Shown here one piece after another: positions 17,566 through 31,114 of a DNA stretch of 33,707 nt. The stretch spans positions 1-33,707 of the forward strand of contig JAFAPI010000140.1 in NCBI GenBank assembly GCA_019247195.1, given 5' to 3'. The stretch comes from Gammaproteobacteria bacterium (GTDB lineage: Bacteria > Pseudomonadota > Gammaproteobacteria > Steroidobacterales > Steroidobacteraceae). The notes below the pieces were generated by a model. That model had not been told where the DNA came from. It saw only the letters and a list, made by a program, of their open reading frames with translations, and did not search any database. Made by a program: the position numbers and the translations under genes. Every line of letters starts with the position of its first letter. Position 1 is the stretch's first letter.

Positions 17566-18260
17566 AACTGCTCGCGCTCGATACCGCGACGGAGAACTGC
17601 TCGGCGGCCCTCCTCCTGGGTGGCGAGATCGCACGACGCGAGCAGCGCGCACCGCGGGCCCATGCCGCACTCATCCTGCCGATGATCGGCGAGCTGCTCG
17701 CCGATGGCGGCGTCACCCTCGGCAGTCTCGATGCGATCGCCTTCGGCTGTGGACCCGGCGCCTTCACCGGGGTGCGTCTCGCCGCCAGCCTTACCCAGGG
17801 GCTTGCCTTCGGGGCAGACTTACCGGTCATCCCCATTTCGGATCTGCGGGCGGTCGCTCAGCAGGCGCTCGAGCTGCAGCCCGCAGCGGCGCGCGTCCTG
17901 GTCTGTAACGATGCGCGCATGCAGGAGGTCTACTGGGGCTGCTTCGAGCGCCGCCTCGAGCTCGCGGCACCGTCCGGTGTGGAGCATGTATCGGTAGCCG
18001 GGCAGGTGAGCGTCCCGGCCACCTGGGCCTCACACACCTTCCTCGGAGCGGGCAGTGGATTTGCCCTCTATCCGCTGCTTATCGCACTCCCGGGCGTAGG
18101 CTCGGAGCGGGTACACGCTGAGCTGCTGCCCCGGGCCGATGAGGTACTGCGTCTGGCGCTGCCGGAGCTCGGCGCGGGACGGGTTTTACCCGCGGAGCGC
18201 GCCCTGCCGGTCTACCTCCGCGAGGAGGTGGCGCGCCTGCCGCCTGAGTCACGGATCTGA
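17562..18260 (+). CDS. tsaB: tRNA threonylcarbamoyladenosine biosynthesis protein TsaB
   Basis: TsaB is the scaffold partner of TsaD in the complex that adds threonylcarbamoyl to A37 of ANN-decoding tRNAs. The 232-residue product has the ASKHA-fold start LLALDTATENCSAAL, the loop GPGAFTGVRLA, and the middle strand VCNDARMQEVYWG. No metal-binding histidine pair is present, which separates it from TsaD. The start is GTG at 17562, coupled to yoaA by the GTGA overlap. Its end lies 80 nt before phoB, and the phoB Pho box follows it directly. Confidence 0.93.
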   Translation: MKLLALDTATENCSAALLLGGEIARREQRAPRAHAALILPMIGELLADGGVTLGSLDAIAFGCGPGAFTGVRLAASLTQGLAFGADLPVIPISDLRAVAQQALELQPAAARVLVCNDARMQEVYWGCFERRLELAAPSGVEHVSVAGQVSVPATWASHTFLGAGSGFALYPLLIALPGVGSERVHAELLPRADEVLRLALPELGAGRVLPAERALPVYLREEVARLPPESRI

Positions 18261-18275
18261 CACGAACGCCAGGCG

Positions 18276-18309
18276 CTGTCATGAATCTGCAATAGAGTGG
18301 CCCTGTAAT
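18276..18309 (+). promoter_or_regulatory. Pho box and -10 element of the phoBR promoter
   Basis: CTGTCAT-GAAT-CTGCAAT (18276-18293) matches the 18-bp Pho box (two 7-bp PhoB half-sites with a 4-bp spacer). Exactly 10 bp later comes TGTAAT (18304-18309) as the -10. In known PhoB promoters the box replaces the -35 at this distance. Another half-site-like CTGACAC is at 18257 but is out of the 11-bp phase. The arrangement predicts autoregulation of phoB by PhoB. Confidence 0.8.
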
Positions 18310-18340
18310 AACGCGGGCCCGCAATCCGTAAGCCCCTCTC

Positions 18341-19036
18341 ATGCCAGCAAAAAATGTGCTGATCGTCGAGGACGAGCGCCCCATTCGCGAGATGATCGCG
18401 TTCGGGCTGAAGCGCGCCGGCTTCGAGGTGCGGGAGGCCGAAGACTGCCGCGCGGCGCGCGCCGCGCTGGCTGATGCCCGTCCGGACCTGGTCCTGGTCG
18501 ACTGGATGTTGCCGGACATGAGCGGCCTGGAGCTCACGCGGGCGCTGAAACGCGACCGCGAGACCCGCGAGCTGCCGATCATCATGCTGACCGCGCGGGC
18601 GGAGGAGGGTGACAAGGTCGCGGGCCTGGAGGGCGGAGCCGACGACTACGTCACCAAGCCCTTCTCCCCGCGCGAGCTCCTGGCCCGGATCAACGCCGTG
18701 CTGCGCCGTAGCACGAGCAGCGGGGTGGATGAGCTCATTGAATTCGAAGGGCTGGTGCTTGACCAGGGCAGCCACCGGGTCACGGTCGGCGAGCGCACCG
18801 TCTCCCTGGGGCCGACCGAGTACCGCATGCTCGAGTTCTTCATGACGCACCCCGAGCGCGTCTATACGCGTGATCAGCTCCTGGATCGGATCTGGGGCGG
18901 GAACGTGTACGTCGAGGAGCGTACGATCGATGTGCACATCCGGCGACTGCGCAAGGCGCTGGAGGATTTCGGGTACGATCACTTCGTGCAGACGGTGCGC
19001 GGGGCGGGCTATCGCTTCTCGGCCCGCACGGAATAG
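18341..19036 (+). CDS. phoB: Phosphate regulon response regulator PhoB
   Basis: PhoB activates phosphate-starvation genes once phosphorylated by PhoR. The 231-residue protein has a receiver domain (5-120) with the acidic pair in [10 protein letters not shown], phosphorylated Asp54 in [11 protein letters not shown], and Lys in YVTKPFSP. An OmpR-type winged helix follows (about 130-230), with [15 protein letters not shown], the recognition segment [14 protein letters not shown], and [11 protein letters not shown]. It is very like E. coli PhoB over its whole length. No Shine-Dalgarno is obvious before the ATG. A Pho box lies 48-65 bp upstream, and phoR follows after 24 nt. Confidence 0.97.
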
Positions 19037-19060
19037 ACAGCGCGCAGGGAGCTCCCGTAC

Positions 19061-20386
19061 ATGCAACCCGCGACACAGGCCTGGTGGTTCGCGGCAGTCA
19101 GACTCCTCGGCACCGTGCTGCTCGGCAGCACCGTCGGCTGGCTGTTCGGCAACACCTGGGGCGGACTGGCGTGCGCCCTCGTCCTGCACCTCGCCTGGGT
19201 GCTCGCCAATCTCTTCCGCCTCGAGTGGTGGCTGCGCCACCGCAGCTACGCCGACCCACCCGATGTCGGTGGCGTTTGGGGCGAGATCATCGCGCAGATC
19301 GTGCGCCTGCACCGGCGCAAACGCTTCCACAAGCAGCGCTTCGTGCAGCTGATGCGGCAGCTGCAGCGCTCGACCGCGGCCCTGCCCGATGGCGTCGTTA
19401 TCCTCAATGCGCAGCGCGAGATCGTTTGGTTCAACCGCATGGCCGGACGGCTGCTGAACCTGCGCCGCGTCGGCGACCTCGGCATGCGGGTCGAGCACCT
19501 GCTGCGTGCTCCGGAGTTCGTGCGCTACCTCGCCGGGCACGATTTCTCCAACCCCGTGACCGTGCGCACCACGAGCGGCGAGGATGGTTTCCTCTCGTTG
19601 CAGGTGGCGCCGTACGGCGAGGGGCAACTGCTGCTCTTGGTGCGTGACGTCACCCGGCAGATGCGCCTCGAGGCCGTGCGCCGCGACTTCGTCGCCAATG
19701 CCTCGCACGAGCTGCGCTCACCGCTTACCGTGATCTCGGGGTACCTCGAGACGCTCGCGCAGGAGGGGGGCCTCGACCCCGAACTCAAGGGGCCGGTGGC
19801 GGAGATGCGGCGCCAGGCCGAACGCATGACCACGATCATCCGCGACCTGCTCGAGCTCTCGCGGCTGGAGGAAACCGAGGAGATCGAGGGAGGCGTGCCG
19901 GTGGACGTGGCCGCGCTCGCGGCGCTGCTGCGCAAGGACGTGCTGGCGCGCCCGGTGCACCCGCACGAGGTGCGCCTGCGTATCGAGTCGCCGTTACAAC
20001 TGGTGGGCGATGAGCCCGAGATCCATTCGGCCTTCTCCAACCTGGTGGACAACGCTGCCAAGTACACCCCGGCCGAGGGCTCCATCGAGATCCGCTGGTG
20101 GGCCGACGAGGAGGGCGGTCATTTCGCCGTCACCGATACCGGCATGGGCATCCCGCCGGAGCATATCCCGCGTCTGACGGAGCGTTTCTATCGCGTCGAT
20201 CGAGGCCGCTCGCGCGCGACCGGCGGCTCAGGGCTCGGCCTGGCGATCGTGAAGCACGTGCTGCAGCGCCACGGCGCACGGCTCGAAGTGCAGAGTGAGA
20301 TCGATGCCGGCAGCTGCTTCGTCTGTCACTTTCCACCGCAGCGACTGGTGCCTGCGCAGCGCGCGCTCACTAGCGCGACGGGTTAG
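19061..20386 (+). CDS. phoR: Phosphate regulon sensor kinase PhoR
   Basis: PhoR is the inner-membrane partner of PhoB; it reads phosphate status through the Pst transporter and PhoU and has no large periplasmic sensor. The 441-residue protein has two N-terminal hydrophobic segments (about 8-30 and 32-50) separated by a very short loop, a charged linker, and a PAS domain (about 100-200, with PDGVVILNAQREIVWFNR). HisKA carries His216 in SHELRSPL. HATPase_c shows NLVDNAAKYTP, DTGMGIP and GGSGLGLAI. AGGGAG lies 9 nt before the ATG. Length and layout match the E. coli protein (431 residues). It is in one operon with phoB. Confidence 0.96.
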   Translation: MQPATQAWWFAAVRLLGTVLLGSTVGWLFGNTWGGLACALVLHLAWVLANLFRLEWWLRHRSYADPPDVGGVWGEIIAQIVRLHRRKRFHKQRFVQLMRQLQRSTAALPDGVVILNAQREIVWFNRMAGRLLNLRRVGDLGMRVEHLLRAPEFVRYLAGHDFSNPVTVRTTSGEDGFLSLQVAPYGEGQLLLLVRDVTRQMRLEAVRRDFVANASHELRSPLTVISGYLETLAQEGGLDPELKGPVAEMRRQAERMTTIIRDLLELSRLEETEEIEGGVPVDVAALAALLRKDVLARPVHPHEVRLRIESPLQLVGDEPEIHSAFSNLVDNAAKYTPAEGSIEIRWWADEEGGHFAVTDTGMGIPPEHIPRLTERFYRVDRGRSRATGGSGLGLAIVKHVLQRHGARLEVQSEIDAGSCFVCHFPPQRLVPAQRALTSATG

Positions 20387-20430
20387 CTTTGCCGCGCAAG
20401 CGCCTCTTGCTTCAGAAAGACTTCGCCACC

Positions 20431-20459
20431 CTGTCACAGAACTGACACACGGCTGTCCG
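20431..20459 (+). promoter_or_regulatory. Pho box with three in-phase half-sites before the PlcP-like operon
   Basis: CTGTCAC-AGAA-CTGACAC (20431-20448) is a near-consensus Pho box. A third half-site, CTGTCCG, begins at 20453, exactly 11 bp after the second, so the sites lie on one face of the helix. The next gene starts at 20504. A -10 is not clear; CCCTAG around 20461-20466 is a weak candidate. The position predicts PhoB activation of the plcP-like, glycosyltransferase and phoU operon, separate from phoBR. Confidence 0.8.
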
Positions 20460-20503
20460 ACCCTAGCTGCGCCCGCCTCAGGGTTTGCAGGACGCCTCAC
20501 CTC

Positions 20504-21313
20504 ATGGCAAGGCCCGCCGCGCGGCCGTCGCGCCTCAGTGTACGCACGCTCTTTTTGTCGGACATCCACCTGGGGTTCCGCCACGCCAGAGCCCGCGAGC
20601 TCAACGAGTTCTTGGCGGGCATCGCGGCGGAGTGCATCGTGCTGGTCGGGGATATCGTCGATGCGCTGAGTCTGGCCCGCCGCGCCTTCTGGAGCGCCGA
20701 GCACACGCAGGTGATCCGCACGCTCCTCGCGCGCCAGCGCGCCGGGACGCGACTCATCTATATCCCCGGCAACCATGACGCGAGCCTCGCTCTCATGGCG
20801 CAGATGCTGCAGGGACAGCTCGAGGTGCACCGCGAGTGGGTGCACCGCGGCGCCCGCGGGGCGCGGCTGCTCGTCATGCACGGGGATCAGCTGGATGGCG
20901 ACATGAGCGCGCCGGCCTGGCTCACCCGGCTCGGCGATGCGCTGCACGGCATGACCGTCGGAGTCAGCCACCGGATCAACAACGTACGCCGCGCGCTCGG
21001 CCGGCCGTACTGGGCACTCACCGCGCCGCTGAAGCTCGGTCTTCCCAGCAGTGCCCGCTACATCGAGCGCTTCGAGACCCTGGCTGCCGGTTATGCGCGC
21101 CAGCACGGTTACGACGGGGTCGTCTGCGGACACATCCACTCGGCGAACCTGCGCGAGATCGGGGGGACTCTCTACGCCAACACGGGCGACTGGATCGAGT
21201 CCTGCTCCGCCCTGGTGGAGACCGCCCACGGGGAGCTGCGACTGCTGCGACCTGCCCAGCCACTGCATGCGAGCTGCCGCGCGCCCGCCACGCCCCTGCC
21301 GGAGCTCGCGTGA
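20504..21313 (+). CDS. plcP: PlcP-like metallophosphoesterase (LpxH-related), probable phospholipase C
   Basis: A 269-residue calcineurin-fold enzyme with the di-metal motifs SDIHLG (Asp20, His22), GDIVD (Asp50), PGNHD (Asn90, His91), MHGD (His126) and CGHIH (208-212). Such proteins are often annotated UDP-2,3-diacylglucosamine hydrolase (LpxH). The C-terminal NTGDWIESCSALVE stretch (from 226), the Pho box upstream and the coupled glycosyltransferase fit better with PlcP, the phosphate-starvation phospholipase C that cuts phosphatidylcholine or phosphatidylethanolamine to diacylglycerol. That function is inferred, not shown. AGGA lies 11 nt before the ATG. The stop overlaps the glycosyltransferase GTG by 4 nt. 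Confidence 0.75.
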   Translation: MARPAARPSRLSVRTLFLSDIHLGFRHARARELNEFLAGIAAECIVLVGDIVDALSLARRAFWSAEHTQVIRTLLARQRAGTRLIYIPGNHDASLALMAQMLQGQLEVHREWVHRGARGARLLVMHGDQLDGDMSAPAWLTRLGDALHGMTVGVSHRINNVRRALGRPYWALTAPLKLGLPSSARYIERFETLAAGYARQHGYDGVVCGHIHSANLREIGGTLYANTGDWIESCSALVETAHGELRLLRPAQPLHASCRAPATPLPELA

Positions 21314-22413
21314 GGATTGCACTCGCGACCGATGCCTGGGAGCCGCAGACCAACGGCGTCGTCACCACACTGCGGGCGACCCGCGCCGAGCTCGCCACGC
21401 TCGGGCACGAGGTGCGGCTGATTCACGGGCAGCAGCTGCGCAGCATCGCGGCGCCCAGCTACCCCGAGATCCGCCTGGCACTTAATCCGGGGCCGTACGT
21501 GGCCCGCGAACTCAAGGCCTTCCGTCCGCACGCGGTCCATATCGCCACCGAGGGGCCGATCGGCCTTGCGGTGCGACGCTACTGCCGGGCGCGCGGCGTC
21601 CCCTTCACCACCTCTTATCACACCCGCTACCCCGAGTACCTCGCCATGCGCTGGCCGATACCGCCGGCGCTCACGTACGCGTGGCTGCGGCGCTTCCATA
21701 ATGCCGCCGCCCGGACCTTCGTCAGCAGCCCGACCCTCGAGCAGCAGCTGCGCGTGCATGGCCTGGGGAGGTTGCACCTGTGGCGGCGCGGCGTTGATCT
21801 CGGCTGCTTCTTTCCCCGGCCGCGCGCGCACCCCCTGCTCGTGGAGCGGCCGCGCCCGCTCATGGTGTGCGTCGGGCGGCTGGCGGTGGAGAAGAACCTC
21901 ACCGCCTTCCTCGAGCTGCCACTGCCGGGCACCAAGGTGCTGATCGGTGACGGACCGCAGCGCGCGGCACTCGCGGCGCGCTACCCGCACGCGCTCTTCG
22001 CCGGTTACCGCTTCGGCACGGAGCTGGCCGAGCTCCTCGCCTGCGCCGACGTGCTGGTGTTCCCGAGCCGCACCGACACCTTCGGTCTCACCATGATCGA
22101 AGCGCTCGCCTGCGGGGTGCCCGTCGCCGCCTACCCGGTCGCAGGTCCGCTCGATGTTCTCGAGGCCGGCGTGAGCGGTGTCATGGACGAGGACCTCGCG
22201 GCCGCCGTGCGCGGCGCACTGCAGCTGGAGCGTGCCGTGTGCGCGAAGCGTGCCGGCGCCTTCAGCTGGCGGGTCGCCACGCAGCAATTCCTCGCCGGAC
22301 TCGCGCCGCTCCCGACCGCGCTGCGTGCCACGCTGGCCGTGCGCCGCAGTTCAGCTATGATCGTCCGCAGGCTGGCGCACAGGCCCACCAGCCAGGCCGG
22401 AGACGCGCTCTGA
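21310..22413 (+). CDS. GT4 glycosyltransferase, probable diacylglycerol glycosyltransferase (Agt/SqdX-like)
   Basis: A 367-residue GT-B enzyme; the true start is GTG at 21310, in GTGA overlap with the PlcP-like gene, because the frame open further upstream is antisense-free read-through without the fold. The N-terminal domain opens with IALATDAWEPQTNGVVTT, the typical start of the SqdX/Agt/MgtA group, and has TSYHTRYPEYL. The C-terminal domain has VCVGRLAVEKN, the donor-site IGDGPQ, and SRTDTFGLTMIEALACG, a D-x7-E form of the E-x7-E motif as in SqdX-like enzymes. No signal peptide or membrane segment is evident. Proposed role: add sugar to diacylglycerol made by PlcP when phosphate is short. 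Donor sugar unknown. Confidence 0.82.
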   Translation: MRIALATDAWEPQTNGVVTTLRATRAELATLGHEVRLIHGQQLRSIAAPSYPEIRLALNPGPYVARELKAFRPHAVHIATEGPIGLAVRRYCRARGVPFTTSYHTRYPEYLAMRWPIPPALTYAWLRRFHNAAARTFVSSPTLEQQLRVHGLGRLHLWRRGVDLGCFFPRPRAHPLLVERPRPLMVCVGRLAVEKNLTAFLELPLPGTKVLIGDGPQRAALAARYPHALFAGYRFGTELAELLACADVLVFPSRTDTFGLTMIEALACGVPVAAYPVAGPLDVLEAGVSGVMDEDLAAAVRGALQLERAVCAKRAGAFSWRVATQQFLAGLAPLPTALRATLAVRRSSAMIVRRLAHRPTSQAGDAL

Positions 22414-23156
22414 TGGAAACCGCCGACTTAAGTCACCACATCTCGCGGCGCTTCAACGAGGATCTCGAGCGCGTGCGCAGCAAGGTGCTCGGCATGGGCG
22501 GCTTCGTCGAGCAGCAGCTGCGCAAGGCGATCACCGCGCTGGTCGAGGGCGACAGCTCGCTCGGCGAGTCGGTCGCGCTCGATGACCATCAGGTGAACAA
22601 CATGGAGGTCGCGATCGACGAGGACTGCAGCAAGATCCTCGCCACGCGCGCGCCGGCGGCCGGCGATCTGCGCGTCATCGTCGCCATCATCAAGACCATC
22701 ACGGACCTCGAGCGCATCGGCGATGAGGGCGAGAAGATCGGCTACATCGCCTCACGCCTGGCCACCATGGAGCGGCCGGCCGACAAGTACCGTGAGATCA
22801 AGCACCTCGGCCGCGTGGTGTCGGACATGGTGCATGACGCCCTGGACGCCTTCGCGCGCATGGACGTCGACTCGGCGCTGCGCGTCGCGCGGCAGGACCG
22901 CCTGGTGGACGAAGAGTACGAGGCGATCCAGCGCCAGAGCATCACCTTCATGATGGAGGACCCGCGCACCATCCGCCGCGCGCTGGACGTGATGTGGGTG
23001 GTGCGCGCCCTGGAGCGTATCGGCGATCATGCCAAGAACATCAGCGAGTACGTGATCTACATGGTGCACGGCAAGGACATCCGCCACACCTCGCTCGATG
23101 ACGTGGAGCGCGAGCTGCGCGACGGGCGGCCCGGCTTGCCCGGCGCCACGGCCTGA
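22413..23156 (+). CDS. phoU: Phosphate signalling regulator PhoU
   Basis: PhoU links Pst transporter status to PhoR and keeps the regulon off when phosphate is plentiful. The product from the ATG at 22413 is 247 residues and all-helical, with the two PhoU repeats and their metal-binding signatures: ITDLERIGDEGEKIG in the first and VRALERIGDHAKNISE in the second. The ATG overlaps the glycosyltransferase TGA (TGATG) and GGAG lies about 11 nt before it; the frame upstream of it is shadow sequence. In E. coli phoU ends the pst operon; here it closes the PlcP-like operon and lies 1.9 kb from pstS, with dsbB and dapE between. Confidence 0.96.
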   Translation: METADLSHHISRRFNEDLERVRSKVLGMGGFVEQQLRKAITALVEGDSSLGESVALDDHQVNNMEVAIDEDCSKILATRAPAAGDLRVIVAIIKTITDLERIGDEGEKIGYIASRLATMERPADKYREIKHLGRVVSDMVHDALDAFARMDVDSALRVARQDRLVDEEYEAIQRQSITFMMEDPRTIRRALDVMWVVRALERIGDHAKNISEYVIYMVHGKDIRHTSLDDVERELRDGRPGLPGATA

Positions 23157-23176
23157 CCTGCCCGCTCTGAGCACGC

Positions 23177-23683
23177 GTGGCGGACTCGGCGCGGCGGTCG
23201 CTCAACTTCACGGGTTTCGCGCTGTGCGCGGGACTGCTGGCCTACGCGCTATTTACTCAGCTGCACGGCGGGCTCGAGCCCTGTCCGCTCTGCATCTTCC
23301 AGCGCATCGGTATCGCACTCACCGGCGTGCTGTTCCTGGTGGCGGCACTCCATGACCCCCGCGCCGGCGGGCGCACCGTTTACCTGCTGCTCATCATCCT
23401 CGCCGCCCTGGCCACCGCCGCGGTGGCCGCGCGCCACGTGTACGTCCAGCACCTGCCGCCGGGCTCGCTACCCTCGTGCGGTGCGCCGCTGAGCGTGCTG
23501 CTGAAGTACACGCCGGTGTGGCAGGTGGTGCGCAAGGTGCTCACCGGCAGCGGGGAGTGCGGCGAGGTCAATTGGCGGTTCCTCGGGCTGGCCATGCCCG
23601 CCTGGGTACTGTTGTGGTCGCTCGCGCTGGCAGCACTTGCGCTGCGCGCCAACCTCAGGCCAGCAGCTCGCGCAGGACGCTGA
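23177..23683 (+). CDS. dsbB: Disulfide bond formation protein DsbB
   Basis: DsbB reoxidises periplasmic DsbA and passes electrons to quinone. The 168-residue protein has four hydrophobic helices. Both redox pairs are present: Cys36-x-x-Cys39 in EPCPLC, and Cys101 with Cys128 in the second periplasmic loop, close to E. coli Cys41/44 and Cys104/130. The quinone-site Arg follows in CIFQRIG. The start is GTG at 23177, 20 nt after phoU, so it may be read through from the phoU operon. Its 3' end overlaps convergent dapE by 29 nt. No dsbA is in view. Confidence 0.95.
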
Positions 23684-24782
23684 CGTACATCGACTGCAGG
23701 GTATCGATGTCCGCGATGCGTACACACTCGTCGAGCTTGTGGATGGAGGCGTTGACCACCCCGAGCTCCACCACCTGCGCGCCGGTGGGTGCGATGAAGC
23801 GTCCATCCGAGGTCCCTCCGTCGGTCGAGAGCCGCGGCGGCGTGCCGCGCACGGCGGCGACCGCCTTGCACACTGCCGCGGTGAGCTCGCCCCGGGGGGT
23901 ATAGAAGGGCTCGCCCGACAGGAACCACTCCAGGCGGTAGCGCACGCCATGCCGGCGCAGCACCTCTTCCACGCTCGCCTTCAGGGCCGGGAGGGTCTGG
24001 GTGGGGCAGTAGCGCAGGTTGAAGCGGGCCGTGAGCTCACCCGGGATGACATTCGGGGCGCCCGTGCCGGCGGTGAGGTTCGACACCTGAAAGCTCGTCG
24101 GCTGGAAGTGCTCTGTGCCCTCGTCCCAGCGCCGGGTCGTGAGCTCGAGCAGCGCGGGGGCGAAGGCGTGCACCGGGTTGTCGGCCAGGTGGGGATAGGC
24201 GATGTGACCCTGCACCCCCTCCACGGTGAGGCGACCGCTGAGGGAGCCGCGCCGGCCCACCTTCAGCGCATCCCCGAGCGAGGCCTCGCTCGAGGGTTCC
24301 CCCACCAGGCACCAATCGATGCGCTCGCCGCGGGCCTGAAGATGCTCCATGACGCGCCGGGTGCCATCGACCGAGGGCCCCTCCTCATCGCTGGTGAGGA
24401 GAAAGGCAATCGAGCCGCGGTGCGCAGGGCAGGCGGCGACGAAGGCCTCCGCCGCGCAGACCATCGCCGCCAGCCCGCTCTTCATGTCCGCTGCGCCGCG
24501 ACCGTACAGCAGACCTTCGCGCACGACCGGCTGAAAGGGGTCGCTGTGCCACGCCTCGCGCGGGCCGGCGGGCACCACGTCGGTGTGCCCTGCGAAGCAG
24601 AAGAGGGGACGGTCCCGTCCCCGCCGCGCCCAGAGGTTCTGCACCGGGCCGAAGGGCAGCGACTCCACCGCGAAACCTGCGCGCGCCAGGCGGGTCCCGA
24701 TCAGCGCCTGGCAGCCGCCATCCTCGGGGGTCACCGAGGCGCGCGCGATCAATTCCTGAGTGAGTTCAACGGCTTGAGACAT
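23655..24782 (-). CDS. dapE: Succinyl-diaminopimelate desuccinylase DapE
   Basis: DapE hydrolyses N-succinyl-LL-diaminopimelate to LL-diaminopimelate and succinate in lysine and peptidoglycan synthesis. The 375-residue product is an M20 di-zinc enzyme with [11 protein letters not shown] (His66, Asp68), [10 protein letters not shown] (bridging Asp), the catalytic acid in [19 protein letters not shown], and the C-terminal GGTSDGRF. Length equals E. coli DapE (375). The ATG is at 24782. It is divergent from pstS and on the same strand as dapD and dapC, which lie beyond the pst block; TATATA at 24820-24825 may be its -10. Confidence 0.96.
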
Positions 24783-24923
24783 GTCTTGGCGGCGGCACCG
24801 GTCCCCCCGGCACGGGGCTTATATACGGGCGGCGGTGGGGCGGCAAGGCGCCCCGCCGTCATGCCTCTGTCAAAGTAACTCGCAACACTAAGGCGGCGGC
24901 GGGGCTTCCCGGGCCGGGGTCCG

Positions 24924-24957
24924 CTGTAATGAGACCGTCACATCATTGTCATCTAAT
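24924..24957 (+). promoter_or_regulatory. Pho boxes and -10 element of the pst operon
   Basis: Three half-sites lie in 11-bp phase: CTGTAAT (24924), CCGTCAC (24935) and TTGTCAT (24946), giving two overlapping 7-4-7 boxes. TCTAAT (24952-24957, five of six to the -10 consensus) begins 10 bp after the first box, the spacing also seen before phoB. AGGAG at 25011-25015 serves the pstS ATG at 25022. The leader would be about 60 nt. Confidence 0.8.
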
Positions 24958-25021
24958 TGCGCGAAGCGGCGGCGGCCCCCGGCGGCGCGAAAGTTGAGTC
25001 CTTCTCAGCGAGGAGCAAAAA

Positions 25022-26083
25022 ATGAACCCATTCAACGCAAAGCGCGCGCTGCTGGCCCTCACCGGCGTGGTCGCGCTGGGCGCGGCGCAGGCCGCCGACA
25101 TCTCCGGCGCCGGCGCGACCTTCCCCTACCCGATCTACTCCAAGTGGGCGGATGCATACAAGCAGCAGACCGGGGTTGGACTGAACTACCAGTCGATCGG
25201 CTCGGGCGGGGGCATCAAGCAGATCAAGGCCAAGACGGTCACCTTCGGCGCCTCCGACATGCCGCTGAAGCCCGAGGAGCTCAAGGAGTCCGGGTTGGTG
25301 CAGTTCCCGATGATCATCGGCGGCGTGGTCCCGGTGCTGAACGTCAAGGGCGTCGCGGCCGGCCAGCTGGTGCTCGATGGCCCGACGATCGCCGCGATCT
25401 ACATGGGCGAGATCACCAAGTGGGATGACGCGCGCATCAAGAAGCTCAACCCCAAGGTGATGCTGCCGCCCACGACCATCGCGCCCGTGTACCGCTCCGA
25501 TGGCTCCGGAACCAACTTTCTCTTCTCCGACTACCTCTCCAAGTCAAGCGCGAAGTTCAAGAGCTCGATCGGCGCCAGCACCTCGGTGCAGTGGCCGGTC
25601 GGCATCGGCGCGAAGGGCAACGAGGGCGTCGCCAACATGACGCGCCAGACCGACGGCGCGATCGGTTACGTCGAGTACGCGTTCGCCAAGCAGACCAACA
25701 TGGCGTACGCCGACCTGATCAACAAGGCCGGCAAGACGGTGGTGCCGAAGGCGGAGAGCTTCCAGGGTGCGGCGGCGAGTGCCGACTGGGCCCACGCGGA
25801 GGGCTACTACCTGATCCTCACCGATCAGTCAGGCGCCGCCAGCTGGCCGATCACCGGTGCGAGCTTCATCCTCCTCTATGCCAATCCGCCCGATGCCGGC
25901 GCGACCAACGAGGCGCTCAAGTTCTTCGATTGGGCCTACAAGAACGGTGGCAAGATGGCCACCGACCTCGACTATGTGCCGCTGCCCGAGGGGCTGATCA
26001 AGCAGGTGCGTGCGACGTGGAAGCAGATCAAGGGCGAAACCGTCGCGCAGCGCTCCGCACCGGGATCCGCGCACGGCGGTTGA
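25022..26083 (+). CDS. pstS: Periplasmic phosphate-binding protein PstS
   Basis: PstS captures phosphate in the periplasm for the PstCAB importer. The 353-residue precursor has a signal peptide (RALLALTGVVALGAAQA, cut before ADISGAG). Phosphate-contacting segments of the family are present: GAGATFPYPIY, IGSGGGIKQI, GASDMPL and YRSDGSGTNF. No lipobox cysteine is present, so it is soluble. It is the first gene of the operon, under the Pho boxes at 24924-24957. A 69-nt GC-rich gap to pstC holds a possible hairpin (26101-26122). Confidence 0.97.
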   Translation: MNPFNAKRALLALTGVVALGAAQAADISGAGATFPYPIYSKWADAYKQQTGVGLNYQSIGSGGGIKQIKAKTVTFGASDMPLKPEELKESGLVQFPMIIGGVVPVLNVKGVAAGQLVLDGPTIAAIYMGEITKWDDARIKKLNPKVMLPPTTIAPVYRSDGSGTNFLFSDYLSKSSAKFKSSIGASTSVQWPVGIGAKGNEGVANMTRQTDGAIGYVEYAFAKQTNMAYADLINKAGKTVVPKAESFQGAAASADWAHAEGYYLILTDQSGAASWPITGASFILLYANPPDAGATNEALKFFDWAYKNGGKMATDLDYVPLPEGLIKQVRATWKQIKGETVAQRSAPGSAHGG

Positions 26084-26152: not shown

Positions 26153-27121
26153 ATGAGCACGGTGGCCGCTATCGAGCCGCGGCACGTGAGCGGCCAGCGT
26201 CTGCGTGAGCGTCTCTTTCGCAGCTCCACGCTCGCGGCGGCGCTGCTGGTGCTGCTGCTTCTGGGCGGGGTCGCCCTGTCGTTGCTCCTCGGCGCGTGGC
26301 CTGCGCTCAAGCACTTCAAGCTGGGCTTCCTCACCCGTGAGGTGTGGAACCCGGTGACCGACCAGTACGGTGCGCTCGCGCCGGTGTACGGCACGCTCGT
26401 GACCTCTGCGCTCGCGCTGCTGCTCGCCATCCCGGTGAGCTTCGGCATCGCCATCTTCCTCACCGAGCTCGCCCCGGCATGGCTCAAGCGGCCGGTGGGC
26501 GTCGCCATCGAGCTGCTCGCCGCCGTGCCGAGCATCATTTACGGCATCTGGGGTCTGTTCGTGCTCGCCCCGGTGCTGCAGCAGCACGTGCAGCCGTGGC
26601 TGATCAACGGGCTCGGTCCGTTGCCGCTGATCGGCAAGCTCTTCCAGGGGCCACCCTTCGGCATCGGCGTGCTCACCGCCAGTTTCGTGCTTGCGATCAT
26701 GGTCATTCCCTTCATCTCCGCGGTGATGCGCGACGTGTTCGAGACCGTGCCCGACGTCCTGAAGGAGTCCGGTTACGGCCTCGGCGCCACCACCTGGGAG
26801 GTCATCTGGCAGGTCGTCGTGCCCTATGCGCGCACCGGCATCATCGGTGGCATCATGCTCGGCCTGGGCCGCGCCCTCGGTGAGACAATGGCGGTGACCT
26901 TCGTCATCGGCAATGCGCACCGCATCGGCTCCTCGCTGCTCGCCCCCGGCACCACCATCTCCGCCTCCATCGCCAACGAGTTCGCCGAGGCGGTGGGCGA
27001 TCTTTATACCTCCTCGCTGATCGCGCTCGGCGCGTTGCTTTTCCTCATCACCTTCACCGTCATCGCCGCCGCGCGGTTGCTGCTGCTGCGCCTGGATCGG
27101 CGTGCCTTGTCCTCGGTATGA
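26153..27121 (+). CDS. pstC: Phosphate ABC transporter permease PstC
   Basis: PstC is one of the two membrane subunits of the phosphate importer. The 322-residue protein has about six hydrophobic helices, the first near residues 25-45. Family stretches are [29 protein letters not shown] and the coupling-helix EAA-like loop [21 protein letters not shown], followed by [17 protein letters not shown]. No good Shine-Dalgarno precedes the ATG. The stop overlaps pstA by 4 nt (ATGA). Confidence 0.96.
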
Positions 27122-27966
27122 GCCGCCGCGCCCTCCGCAGCCTCACCAATGCCGGGGCGCTCGCCCTCTCGGGGCTCGCCACGGCGATCGGGCTTTTCTT
27201 CCTCGGCGCCATCCTCTGGACGCTCGTAAAGAACGGCGTCGGCGGCATGTCCGCCCAGGTGTTCAGCGCCATGACGCCGCCGCCGGGCAGCAGCGGCGGC
27301 CTGCTCAACGCCATCTACGGCAGCGTCGCCATGACGGTCATCGGCATCGCTATCGGCGGTCCGGTAGGGATGCTCGCCGGCACGTATCTGGCAGAGTACG
27401 GACGTCACTCGAGGCTCAGCACGGTCATCCGTTTCGTCAACGATGTCCTGCTGTCAGCGCCCTCGATCATCATCGGGCTGTTCGTCTATCAGCTGCTGGT
27501 GGTCCGCATGGGGCATTTCTCCGCCATCGCCGGGGCGGTCGCGCTGGCCATCATCGCCATGCCCGTCACCGTGCGCACCACCGAGGACATGCTCCTGCTC
27601 GTACCGCAGGGCATGAAGGATGCCTCGACCGCCATGGGGGCCTACCCCTGGCGTACCATCCTCAGTGTCATCTATCCGGCGGCACGCAGCGGTGTGGTGA
27701 CCGGACTGCTGCTCGCGGTCGCGCGCATCAGCGGCGAGACGGCGCCGCTGCTCTTCACCGCGCTCAACAATCAGTTCTGGAGCTCGAACCTCGGCGCACC
27801 CATGGCCAACCTGCCGGTGGTGATCTTCCAGTTCGCACTCAGCCCGTACCCGAACTGGCAGCAGCTCGCCTGGTCGGGCGCGCTGCTGATCACCGCCAGC
27901 ATTCTGGTACTGAGTATCGCCGCGCGCATCATCGTCTCGAGTCTCGGTCCGGGGGGGCGACGCTGA
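27118..27966 (+). CDS. pstA: Phosphate ABC transporter permease PstA
   Basis: PstA is the second membrane subunit, pairing with PstC. The 282-residue protein has about six hydrophobic segments, with [26 protein letters not shown], the EAA-like loop [18 protein letters not shown], and [16 protein letters not shown], all typical of PstA. The ATG overlaps the pstC stop (4 nt) and the TGA overlaps the pstB1 ATG by 1 nt, so the whole block is translationally coupled. Confidence 0.96.
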
Positions 27967-28769
27967 TGCCGGCGGCGGCGCAGCCGGCACCAGGGGTCGC
28001 GTCGCAGCCGGCCGAGGCGGTCAAGTTCGAGGTGCGGCAGCTGGATTTTTTCTACGGCAGCATCCAGGCGCTGAAGAACATCAACCTGGTGCTGCGTGAC
28101 CGGCAGATCACCGCCTTCATCGGCCCATCGGGCTGCGGCAAGTCGACGCTGCTGCGGGTCTTCAACCGCATGTATGCGCTGTACGCGGGCCATCGCGCCA
28201 GCGGCACCGTGTTGCTCGACGGCGAGGACATCCTGGCACCCAGCGTGGACGTCGCGCAGCTGCGTTTCCGAGTGGGCATGGTGTTCCAGAAGCCGACGCC
28301 TTTCCCGATGTCGATCTTCGACAACGTCGCCTTCGGTTTGCGGTTGGCGCGACGCATCTCGCGCAGCGAACTGACCGATCGCGTGGAAGAGGCGCTGCGC
28401 GATGCGGCGATGTGGGAAGAGGTCAAGGACAAGCTGCACGAGGATGGGCGCAGCCTGTCCGGGGGGCAGCAGCAGCGGTTGTGCATCGCGCGCACGCTCG
28501 CTCTGCAGCCCGAGGTGCTGCTGTTCGATGAGCCAACCGCCGCGCTCGACCCCATCTCGACCCTGCGGGTCGAGGAGACGCTGCAGAGCCTGCGGGAGCG
28601 CTACTGCATCGCGATCGTCACGCACAACCTGCAGCAGGCGGCGCGCGTCTCCAACGTCACCGCCTTCATGTACCTCGGCGAACTGGTCGAGATGGGGGCG
28701 ACGGAGCAGATCTTCACCGCTCCCAAGAGCCGCCGCACCGATGATTACGTCACCGGCCGGTTCGGCTAG
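27966..28769 (+). CDS. pstB: Phosphate ABC transporter ATPase PstB, copy 1
   Basis: This is an ATPase subunit that powers phosphate import. The ATG at 27966 gives 267 residues; open frame further upstream is shadow of pstA. Walker A is GPSGCGKST (53-61), the Q loop lies in [14 protein letters not shown], the signature is LSGGQQQR, and Walker B is [12 protein letters not shown], with the switch His in VTHNLQQ. It ends in [10 protein letters not shown], the usual PstB tail. DEPTAALDP differs from the DEPCSALDP of copy 2, so the two copies have clearly diverged. An 18-nt gap separates it from copy 2. Confidence 0.94.
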
Positions 28770-28787
28770 AGTGGCGACAGGACACCC

Positions 28788-29756
28788 ATGAACGACACCC
28801 CCGACACCAACGCCGGCGAGGTGCGCCGCAGCCGCGGCGCACCCGCCGTGCCCACCAAGGCCGGCGTGGCGCTGCCGTTGGAGCGGGCGGTGCGCGCGCG
28901 CGCCGAGGAGGGCGGCCTCAACCTCAAGCCGAGTGGACGGCAGCCCACCAGCGCCCTGGAAGGTCGGGGCGCGGCGGCCGAGGCGGTCACCCCGCTCGCC
29001 GACGCCGTGTTCATCTGTCGGGACGTGAACGTGTTCTACGGCGCAAAGCAGGCACTGAAGAACGTATCCATCGACATTGCGCCTCGCCAGGTGCTCGCGC
29101 TTATCGGTCCATCGGGCTGCGGCAAGTCGACCTTCCTGCGCTGCCTTAACCGCATGAACGACACCATACCCGGTGCGCGGGTGACCGGATCGATCAAGCT
29201 CGATGGCCAGGACATCCACGATCCCGCACTGGATGTGGTGCAGCTGCGGGCGCGCATCGGCATGGTGTTCCAGAAGCCGAACCCTTTCCCCAAGTCCATC
29301 TACGACAATGTCGCCTACGGGCCGCGCATCCACGGGCTCGCGCGCAGTCGCGCGCAGCTCGACGAGATCGTGTGCTCGAGTCTGACCCGTGCGGGGTTAT
29401 GGGATGAGGTCAAGGACCGCCTGCGCAGCCCCGGGACCGGGTTGTCCGGCGGCCAGCAGCAACGGCTGTGCATCGCACGCACGATCGCCGTGCAGCCCGA
29501 GGTCATTCTGATGGACGAGCCCTGCTCGGCGCTCGACCCGGTGGCCACCGCGCGGATCGAAGATCTGATCGACGAGCTGTGTCAGTCCTATGCGATCGTC
29601 ATCGTGACGCACTCGATGCAGCAGGCGGCGCGGGTCTCGCAGCGCACCGGCTACTTTCACCTCGGGGAGCTCATCGAGGTCGGCGACACGGACCGGATCT
29701 TCACCAATCCGCGCCACCGACTCACCGAGGACTACATCACCGGCCGCTTCGGCTGA
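28788..29756 (+). CDS. pstB: Phosphate ABC transporter ATPase PstB, copy 2 with N-terminal extension
   Basis: A second PstB, 322 residues. Walker [10 protein letters not shown] is at 107-115, 54 residues further in than in copy 1, after a hydrophilic Ala/Arg/Gly/Pro-rich extension of about 70 residues. The rest is canonical: [37 protein letters not shown], and the tail [10 protein letters not shown]. The extension codons keep the high third-position GC of coding DNA, which supports the ATG at 28788, though GTG codons inside could also start. Copy 2 is closer to the textbook PstB. With one pstC and one pstA, the two ATPases may form a heterodimer or compete. Confidence 0.93.
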
Positions 29757-29780
29757 GCGCGGGGCTAGAAGCCCCAGCGC
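29757..29780. terminator. Hairpin at the pstB2/porin convergent junction
   Basis: GCGC-GGGGCT (29757-29766) pairs with AGCCCC-a-GCGC (29770-29780) around a 3-nt loop, with one bulged A. It directly follows the pstB2 stop and spans the porin stop (29765-29767), so it could end transcription from both sides. No T tract is present on either strand. Confidence 0.5.
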
Positions 29781-30991
29781 AGGTAGACACCGATCTCGTC
29801 GAATTTGCCCTGGCCCGCACCGGTGGCACCGCCGATCGTGTAGCTGCCGTTGGCGTTGCCCCCACTCACCGACGTGCTGCCGTTCTCCACCTTCTCGTAC
29901 TTGTAGACCAGCGCTACATCCAAGGCAGACAGCGGCTTGTAGGCGATGCCGACGTTGGCGTAATGGTCCTTGAGGTTGGCGGCGACGTCCTTGCTGAGCT
30001 TGGCCTCGTCATAGCGGGCGAACACGGACCAGTCCGGAGTGAACTGGTACGAGGCCCACGCCGAGTAGCCGTCTGCCTTGTCGCTCACCGGAGTCGTGCC
30101 GGTCGAGGTCACGATCGAGGAGGTGCCGAAGGCCGAGGCGGCGAGGTTGTTCACCGTCTTGTAGTTCTTGGCATTGAAGTACTCCACCCCCACGCGCAGC
30201 CCGGCCACATCCACGCCGACCACGCCATCGAAGCGGGTCGCCGTGTTAGTCGGAAACGTGTCATTGCTGGCAGTGACCTGGCCGAGGTGGCCACTGTAGA
30301 AGCCCGCACCGAGCGTCAGCCACTCGATCGGCTTCACGTGCACGCGGCCCTCCAGGTCGACATCCTTGGTGCGGGTGGGGTTCTTGTAACCACCGCCATT
30401 GAGCACCGATACGGAGTAGCCGGCGAGCTCATGGTCACCGAAGCTGCCGAAGGCGTTGAGCCCCCAGTCGGCCGAGGTGCCGAACCCGAGCCGGTCGATC
30501 GTCACCTTCTCGACCCAGCGGTAGCCGTACAGGCTGTTTTCCAGCCAGGGCACCCAGGGCGTGTCCGCCGCGCCGACGCGCAGGCCGAATTCCTGCTGCG
30601 GTTTGTATTGCAGATACGCCTTCTTGATGAACACCTCGGTCACGCCGCCACTCGTGTTCTGGCCGGTGACGGCCGTGGTCGTGCCCGTGGGTGTGGTCAC
30701 CGTCGTGGTCGTCGCGCTCGAGTACTGCGCATCGGTCGTGAGGTTCGCCGACCAGACGTCGTTGAAGGTATGGTTCACGATGAGGTAGAAACGCTTGACG
30801 TCCAGGCCCGTTCCCGTGGGGGGCGTGTCGACCTCCTTGCCGGTCTTGTCATCGTTCTTGAGATCGATGTGGCTCGCGTCCGCGAAAACGACGCCACCGA
30901 CGCTGGTCTTATCGGTGATCTGCACGTCCGCTAGAGCTGTTGCAGTAGCGCAACTTAAGACTAGGGCGGCGGGGATGAGAGAGTTCCGCAT
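29765..30991 (-). CDS. Outer-membrane porin of the phosphate-starvation cluster
   Basis: A 408-residue beta-barrel protein with a signal peptide (LIPAALVLSCATATALA, cut before DVQ). The mature protein alternates short amphipathic strands with Gly/Asn/Thr-rich turns and ends in YLRWGF, the C-terminal Phe needed for barrel insertion. FNDVWSANLTTDAQY and FIKKAYLQYKP resemble the OprO/OprP-like porin group. The Pho box and the pst neighbour make phosphate or polyphosphate uptake the likely job, but selectivity is not visible in the sequence. AGGAG lies 7 nt before the ATG. Convergent with pstB2. Confidence 0.85.
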   Translation of the reverse strand: MRNSLIPAALVLSCATATALADVQITDKTSVGGVVFADASHIDLKNDDKTGKEVDTPPTGTGLDVKRFYLIVNHTFNDVWSANLTTDAQYSSATTTTVTTPTGTTTAVTGQNTSGGVTEVFIKKAYLQYKPQQEFGLRVGAADTPWVPWLENSLYGYRWVEKVTIDRLGFGTSADWGLNAFGSFGDHELAGYSVSVLNGGGYKNPTRTKDVDLEGRVHVKPIEWLTLGAGFYSGHLGQVTASNDTFPTNTATRFDGVVGVDVAGLRVGVEYFNAKNYKTVNNLAASAFGTSSIVTSTGTTPVSDKADGYSAWASYQFTPDWSVFARYDEAKLSKDVAANLKDHYANVGIAYKPLSALDVALVYKYEKVENGSTSVSGGNANGSYTIGGATGAGQGKFDEIGVYLRWGF

Positions 30992-31080
30992 TCTCGAGCT
31001 CCTGCTAGGGGCTTGGTTGTGACAGTTTTATGGCCGAAAGCGCCAGCCCGCACTTGGCAGCGCGATCAAACAGATAGCGG

Positions 31081-31114
31081 ATCGTACGACGGCGGTATGA
31101 CATCCAGATGACAC
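31081..31114 (-). promoter_or_regulatory. Pho box and -10 element of the porin promoter
   Basis: Read on the minus strand, GTGTCAT-CTGG-ATGTCAT (31114 to 31097) is a 7-4-7 Pho box. After exactly 10 bp comes TACGAT (31086 to 31081), four of six to the -10 consensus. The leader to the porin ATG would be about 85 nt. No third in-phase half-site was found. Confidence 0.72.

Follow-up and report, generated by a model that had tools for sequence, protein, structure and literature searches.

A candidate Pho-controlled plcP-agt lipid-remodelling cassette between phoBR and phoU in a gammaproteobacterial genus

In a 33,707-nucleotide contig from a gammaproteobacterium of the Steroidobacteraceae (JAFAPI010000140.1 of assembly GCA_019247195.1), a gene for a metallophosphoesterase and a gene for a family 4 glycosyltransferase (GT4) lie between the phosphate-response genes phoBR and phoU. 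The whole contig, here called the window, is one of 257 in its assembly (G000:C222). Two questions are raised by this locus: (i) whether the two genes are plcP and agt, the pair that replaces phospholipids with phosphorus-free glycolipids; and (ii) whether phoU, which follows them, is governed by their promoter or by one of its own. We think it probable, with some room for doubt, that the locus is a Pho-box-driven plcP-agt lipid-swap cassette situated between phoBR and phoU, and that phoU has an older promoter of its own.

The identity of the phosphoesterase is central to the first question. The NCBIfam LpxH model gives the protein 23.5 bits, below its cut-off of 134, and a separate LpxH is encoded elsewhere in the genome (G000:C78; 274 bits with TIGR01854, cut-off 190.35). 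It retains the motifs SDIHLG, GDIVD, GNHD, HGD and GHIH, where the genome's own LpxH has GNRD in place of GNHD. Residues D20, H22, D50, N90, H126, H210 and H212 are invariant in a nine-row alignment and would be metal ligands, as in LpxH. A quick maximum-likelihood tree was built from 118 rows: 21 window-type proteins, 11 from relatives, 74 named and 12 LpxH. In it, the 21 window-type proteins form one group (support 100) that lies within a PlcP clade of 36 rows, most of them gammaproteobacterial (96), and the LpxH rows stand apart on one side of a branch (100), values to be read with caution because the tree is a quick one with long rows; many of its inner forks are weak. Many members of the clade have agt as a neighbour. 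Rows taken as LpxH were those with both SDxHL and GNRD, locus L193 being dropped, and 74 of the 77 named rows from outside the genus were used, L124 and L183 being too short and L170 presumably duplicating an included row. The original prediction, which read the first two genes as a PlcP-Agt pair and proposed to check this by a tree and by looking for a separate lpxH, is thus supported on both counts. Structural comparison adds little beyond the fold. A search of the PDB with PlcP as single query gave no match at 0.001, and a search by PlcP alignment gave LpxH as the closest solved family. The predicted structure has a mean predicted local distance difference test (pLDDT) score of 78.9, and its best Foldseek matches are again LpxH, with a template modelling (TM) score of about 0.5 and a root-mean-square deviation of 7.5-13.6 over the LpxH matches, which backs the fold only. 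Membership of the PlcP family is supported by these comparisons, and the substrate is one that we infer.

The glycosyltransferase shows 47-56% identity to four plcP-adjacent GT4 proteins from outside its own group. Other GT4 proteins in 15 genomes reach 29-38% over longer matches, the exceptions being copies at 49-57% in G002, G020, G079 and G080. It is of the Agt type, with a predicted glycolipid-making activity. The pairing was also looked for outside the genus, in 77 named PlcP loci and in a class survey of 369 genomes, which gave 104 non-window matches; 100 of these were used, those left out being G442, G140, G111 and the second match in G397. In 101 of these 177 loci, an Agt-like glycosyltransferase (at least 150 bits) lies within 1.5 kb of plcP. 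A tail found only in window-type Agt was considered and rejected, as the lengths of 358-367, from rows that repeat genomes, overlap the range of 330-371 in 53 named Agt proteins.

One alternative concerns the substrate: the diverged phosphoesterase may act on another phospholipid or on a different lipid, and the glycosyltransferase may decorate the product, so that the locus would not perform ordinary phospholipid-to-glycolipid remodelling. Several observations count against the reading that we prefer, and those that concern the enzymes are as follows. The stem of window-type PlcP is long, at 2.07 changes per column, and of 73 columns with at least 90% conservation among 85 other PlcPs, the window type keeps 60 and has changed 13, including W55 and S171 (each in 85/85 elsewhere), E93, R96 and D227; with such a stem and such changes, the substrate may differ. 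The tree rows include no experimentally characterised PlcP or Agt, and PlcP type was judged by agt neighbours. Among 58 genomes returned for the genus, plcP stands at this site without agt in two (G020 and G075), and agt stands there without plcP in one (G035). No close agt was found anywhere in the G075 genome, which is 97% complete, though G020 has an agt of 56% identity elsewhere. In G015 (L035/L029), agt is split over two frames, by a frameshift or an assembly error. As a separate observation, the window PlcP departs at I231 and P250, and jointly with one relative at L130, from residues that nearly all others keep, a hint at relaxed constraint. On the other side, the metal-site motifs are retained, an Agt-type glycosyltransferase is paired with window-type plcP in 20 of 22 carriers, and an ordinary PlcP appears to have replaced the window type in genomes that lack it (see below). 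On this balance we regard a different substrate as unlikely, though not negligibly so.

The cassette is patchily distributed in the genus. The order plcP-agt-phoU stands at the window's place in 20 of the 58 genomes, and phoR lies directly before phoU, which we call the empty state, in 28. Besides the partial cassettes mentioned above, one is interrupted by a contig end (G034; scored as agt-only in the element, tree and overlap analyses, though the contig ends inside agt), and phoU was not found in the remaining six genomes. Of the 20 full cassettes, 18 are preceded by phoR, the fetched stretch ending first in G015 and G078, and the contig of G016 holds just the first 22 residues of phoU. Contigs of metagenome-assembled genomes of the genus likewise carry the full cassette (JAFAKO010000257 and PMHN01000193) or a phoU-linked cassette without agt (DAHUXE010000021). 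No phoU-linked plcP-agt pair was seen among the 177 loci outside the genus, an absence that falls short of proof since contig ends cut some of the flanks. The only such locus with phoU within 5 kb is L282, where phoU is on the opposite strand and there is no agt. In six of the 177, phoBR directly precedes plcP, so that the phoBR-plcP linkage extends more widely and the phoU linkage is seen in the genus only. In three of these six loci (L202, L204 and L208) a second, distant GT4 gene (26-27%) lies on the opposite strand behind phoBR-plcP-agt. Separately, a second PhoU-like gene (31-39% identity) is present in G005, G010, G034, G035 and G077; in all but G005 it lies 4-8 kb from phoU on the same contig, and the G010 copy contains stop codons.

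How this patchiness arose can be approached through a tree of PhoB, PhoR and PhoU with 52 rows. All whole and partial cassettes fall within one group of 32 genomes (support 100/99), with 20 empty genomes on the other side, and at least five changes between the empty and cassette states are needed on this tree. The number of changes alone cannot separate gain from loss. Relics are more informative: a stop codon overlaps the phoU start, as that of agt does, in 8/8 empty genomes of the cassette group versus 1/20 in the other group, and the empty genome G062 has a Pho box (11/14) in its usual place behind phoR and, by eye, a stretch resembling the 3' end of agt before phoU. Such relics favour a single gain followed by several losses, which is the probable history of the cassette; the relics could partly stem from shared leader sequence. 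A second PlcP type is absent from all 22 genomes with the window type, and is whole in 8 of the 36 without it (G002, G007, G011, G017, G031, G068, G079 and G080), with a fragment in G035 (Fisher p = 0.009 with the fragment and 0.016 when it is left out, with no correction for relatedness). This pattern fits replacement by an equivalent enzyme. The five second-type proteins in the PlcP tree (L023-L027, from G007, G002, G031, G017 and G011) are 39-42% identical to the window PlcP and group among mostly betaproteobacterial PlcPs, which suggests horizontal gain.

A Pho box upstream of plcP would place the cassette under phosphate control. The half-sites CTGTCAC and CTGACAC, separated by AGAA, lie at 20431-20448 and match CTGTCAYNNNNCTGWCAY with zero mismatches; this is the sole site with 0-1 mismatches across the 33.7-kb window, where shuffling gives a mean of 0.03 such sites per shuffle (one site in 3 of 100 shuffles). 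Scored against the stricter half-site CTGTCAY, it matches at 13/14. Three in-phase half-sites had been claimed at first; two are good, and the third (CTGTCCG, 20453-20459), while in register, is weak at 5/7. Other Pho-box-like sites in the window include some with two mismatches before phoB (18246-18293) and before a pstS-like gene (24924-24952), and several upstream (31019-31114) of a gene that looks porin-like by eye (29765-30991, minus strand). The latter carry 2-3 mismatches, and such sites are frequent by chance.

Across the genus, 15 of the 19 full-cassette genomes that could be scored, among them that of the window, have a Pho box of at least 11/14 in the 120 nt before plcP; the four that score below 11 are a further point on the unfavourable side. 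The same threshold and distance applied to phoU give a Pho box in 0/20 basal empty genomes and in 1/8 derived ones, those of the cassette group. This final scoring used 120 nt and all rows with that much sequence; in an earlier scoring, the loci of G015, G078 and G034 lacked phoR, and for G003 and G067 the stretch scored was 120 nt. Because the Pho box is rare before phoU in empty genomes, the older state seems to have been a phoU without one nearby, and because it stands before plcP, the cassette seems to have brought it. Control of plcP by the Pho box is putative.

The second question, whether phoU has a promoter of its own, is addressed by a short element. In 51/52 genus genomes, TAT[CG]AT lies in the 110 nt upstream of phoU, the exception being G062, with TATTAT; it is found in 27/28 empty genomes and 20/20 with the full cassette. 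By comparison, it is present in 10 of 2509 background windows taken from these loci, in 2/36 phoB leaders and in 0/15 plcP leaders. In full cassettes the element lies inside the extracted agt frame (20/20), in the same register in 19/20, and the five codons around it show third-position conservation of 1.0, 0.75, 0.95, 0.5 and 0.9, versus 0.4-0.95 in 18 neighbours. Three results sit on the debit side: the planned controls in dsbB and pstS leaders yielded 0/0 rows; a -35 hexamer at spacers of 16-18 was not found (mean match 2.29, shifted controls 1.88-2.44); and passages on Pseudomonas putida and Phaeobacter describe PhoU as Pho-dependent. A sigma-70 scan of 18000-25200 also returned 0 sites. 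With neither a -35 hexamer nor a sigma-70 call, the phoU promoter is one that we infer from conservation alone. Since the element is kept with or without the cassette, phoU most likely retains its own promoter and would gain at most starvation-induced read-through.

The competing view is that of true operon coupling, in which phoU would be transcribed mainly from the Pho box together with plcP and agt, so that remodelling and the brake on the response rise together. The close packing of the genes speaks for it. The plcP stop and the GTG start of agt overlap by 4 nt (GTGA) in the window and in 20/20 full cassettes, and the TGA of agt shares one base with the ATG of phoU (TGATG), an in-frame 1-nt overlap found in 16/20. 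The exceptions are G024, G032 and G064, with gaps of 3-20 nt, and the frame-split G015; overlaps were counted in the agt frame, and a looser count that accepts stop triplets at the start of phoU regardless of frame gives 18/20. These overlaps are compatible with translational coupling but are not proof of it. The Pho box upstream, the Pho dependence described in the two other bacteria and the lack of any terminator-like site between the genes point the same way. Against coupling stand the promoter-like element itself, present before phoU even where the cassette is missing, the lack of a Pho box of at least 11 within 120 nt of phoU in 20/20 basal and 7/8 derived empty genomes, and the repeated switches between the empty and cassette states. 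Coupling as the main source of PhoU therefore seems to us rather unlikely. The original prediction had tied lipid remodelling to the feedback brake through phoU; the gene order that it relied on is kept in 20/58 genomes, and the tie itself is weakened both by the near-universal element and by the apparent repeated loss of the cassette while phoU stayed. The last alternative, that the phosphoesterase serves lipid A synthesis as the LpxH of this genome, can be rejected with near certainty on its model score, the separate gene, the GNHD motif and its place in the tree, even though LpxH is the closest solved family.

The preferred reading, of a Pho-box-driven lipid-swap cassette before a phoU with its own older promoter, would operate as follows. 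Under phosphate starvation, PhoB would bind the Pho box and switch on plcP and agt. PlcP would cut the head groups from phospholipids to leave diacylglycerol, to which Agt would add a sugar, yielding a phosphorus-free glycolipid and sparing phosphate. The older promoter of phoU would now lie within the last codons of agt, so that PhoU could be made without the cassette promoter, and read-through from the Pho box, if the genes are co-transcribed, could add to the supply. A further step is speculative and on the whole doubtful: read-through PhoU on top of the basal agt-embedded promoter might pre-load the brake in cells with remodelled membranes, so that the Pho response ends faster at recovery; loss of the cassette would remove this pre-loading, and in parallel the phospholipid substrate of PlcP would have narrowed or shifted.

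The features of the locus are listed in Table 1. The genes phoB, phoR and phoU were assigned by NCBIfam models, each above its cut-off. Coordinates and overlaps agree with the order first described (phoBR, metallophosphoesterase, GT4, phoU), except that the start of the GT4 gene has been corrected to a GTG.

Table 1. Genes and sites of the phoBR-phoU region, in window coordinates
Feature	Position	Strand	Evidence
phoB response regulator	18341..19036	+	TIGR02154, 347.7 bits (cut-off 296.2)
phoR sensor kinase	19061..20386	+	TIGR02966, 397.2 bits (cut-off 334.2)
Putative Pho box, three half-sites at 11-bp spacing, two good and one weak	20431..20459	+	Site scans
plcP-type metallophosphoesterase, divergent subfamily	20504..21313	+	Metallophos, 39.3 bits; PlcP side of tree; metal-site motifs
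agt-type GT4 glycosyltransferase, GTG start	21310..22413	+	Glyco_transf_4, Glyco_trans_1_4
TATGAT, -10-like element inside the 3' end of agt, upstream of phoU	22356..22361	+	Conservation
phoU	22413..23156	+	TIGR02135, 234.7 bits (cut-off 130.25)

The surrounding genes were named by eye. A dsbB-like gene and then a pstS-like gene (at 25022) lie 3' of phoU, and dinG and tsaB lie upstream. Two adjoining pstB-like ATPase genes follow a pstA-like gene (27102-29756), and phoU is not behind them. An Rfam search of the window gave no match.

The locus offers a natural experiment, in that related genomes differ in whether a lipid cassette precedes phoU and the same promoter-like element is kept in both. 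It thereby allows one to ask whether effector genes placed between a sensor and a brake alter the dynamics of the phosphate response, and suggests how a promoter may survive after a coding sequence has come to overlie it. It also draws attention to a divergent subfamily of PlcP, for which LpxH proteins are the nearest relatives of solved structure.

Finally, we compare the locus with known systems. Operons with the same order, plcP and then a GT4-type agt, are described in passages on marine isolates (PMC4796936), Pseudomonas aeruginosa (PA3219-PA3218; PMC8528852) and Methylosinus trichosporium (PMC9239053), and in the first two Pho boxes are reported upstream, as in the window. According to these passages, plcP and two agt genes of P. 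aeruginosa are needed for monoglucosyldiacylglycerol (MGDG) and glucuronic acid diacylglycerol (GADG), apart from a little GADG that remains in the plcP mutant (PMC8528852); the SAR11 Agt makes both lipids in Escherichia coli (PMC4796936); and when plcP-agt is mutated in M. trichosporium, GADG is lost and MGDG stays (PMC9239053). The window differs in having the pair between phoR and phoU, in the overlaps at both ends of agt and in its divergent PlcP. None of the three papers mentions phoU in its main text, and plcP beside phoU is undescribed in the open-access passages covered, including PMC12981677, with supplements outside that scope.

Closer in one respect are the six phoBR-plcP(-agt) loci (L123, L175, L295, L202, L204 and L208), in which plcP directly follows phoR and agt comes next in five; unlike the window, they show no phoU behind plcP(-agt) in the stretches fetched, some of these being cut short where the contig ends. 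In pstSCAB-phoU operons, phoU likewise lies downstream of Pho-regulated genes and more than one promoter is possible; alternative promoters are on record for the E. coli pst operon (Spira et al. 2010, as cited in passages of PMC12096839 and PMC11389368). In the window, by contrast, phoU is not behind pstB, lipid enzymes precede it and the putative promoter lies inside agt. The pathway is therefore a known one, whereas the phoR-plcP-agt-phoU arrangement, its repeated loss and the likely phoU promoter inside agt look new.

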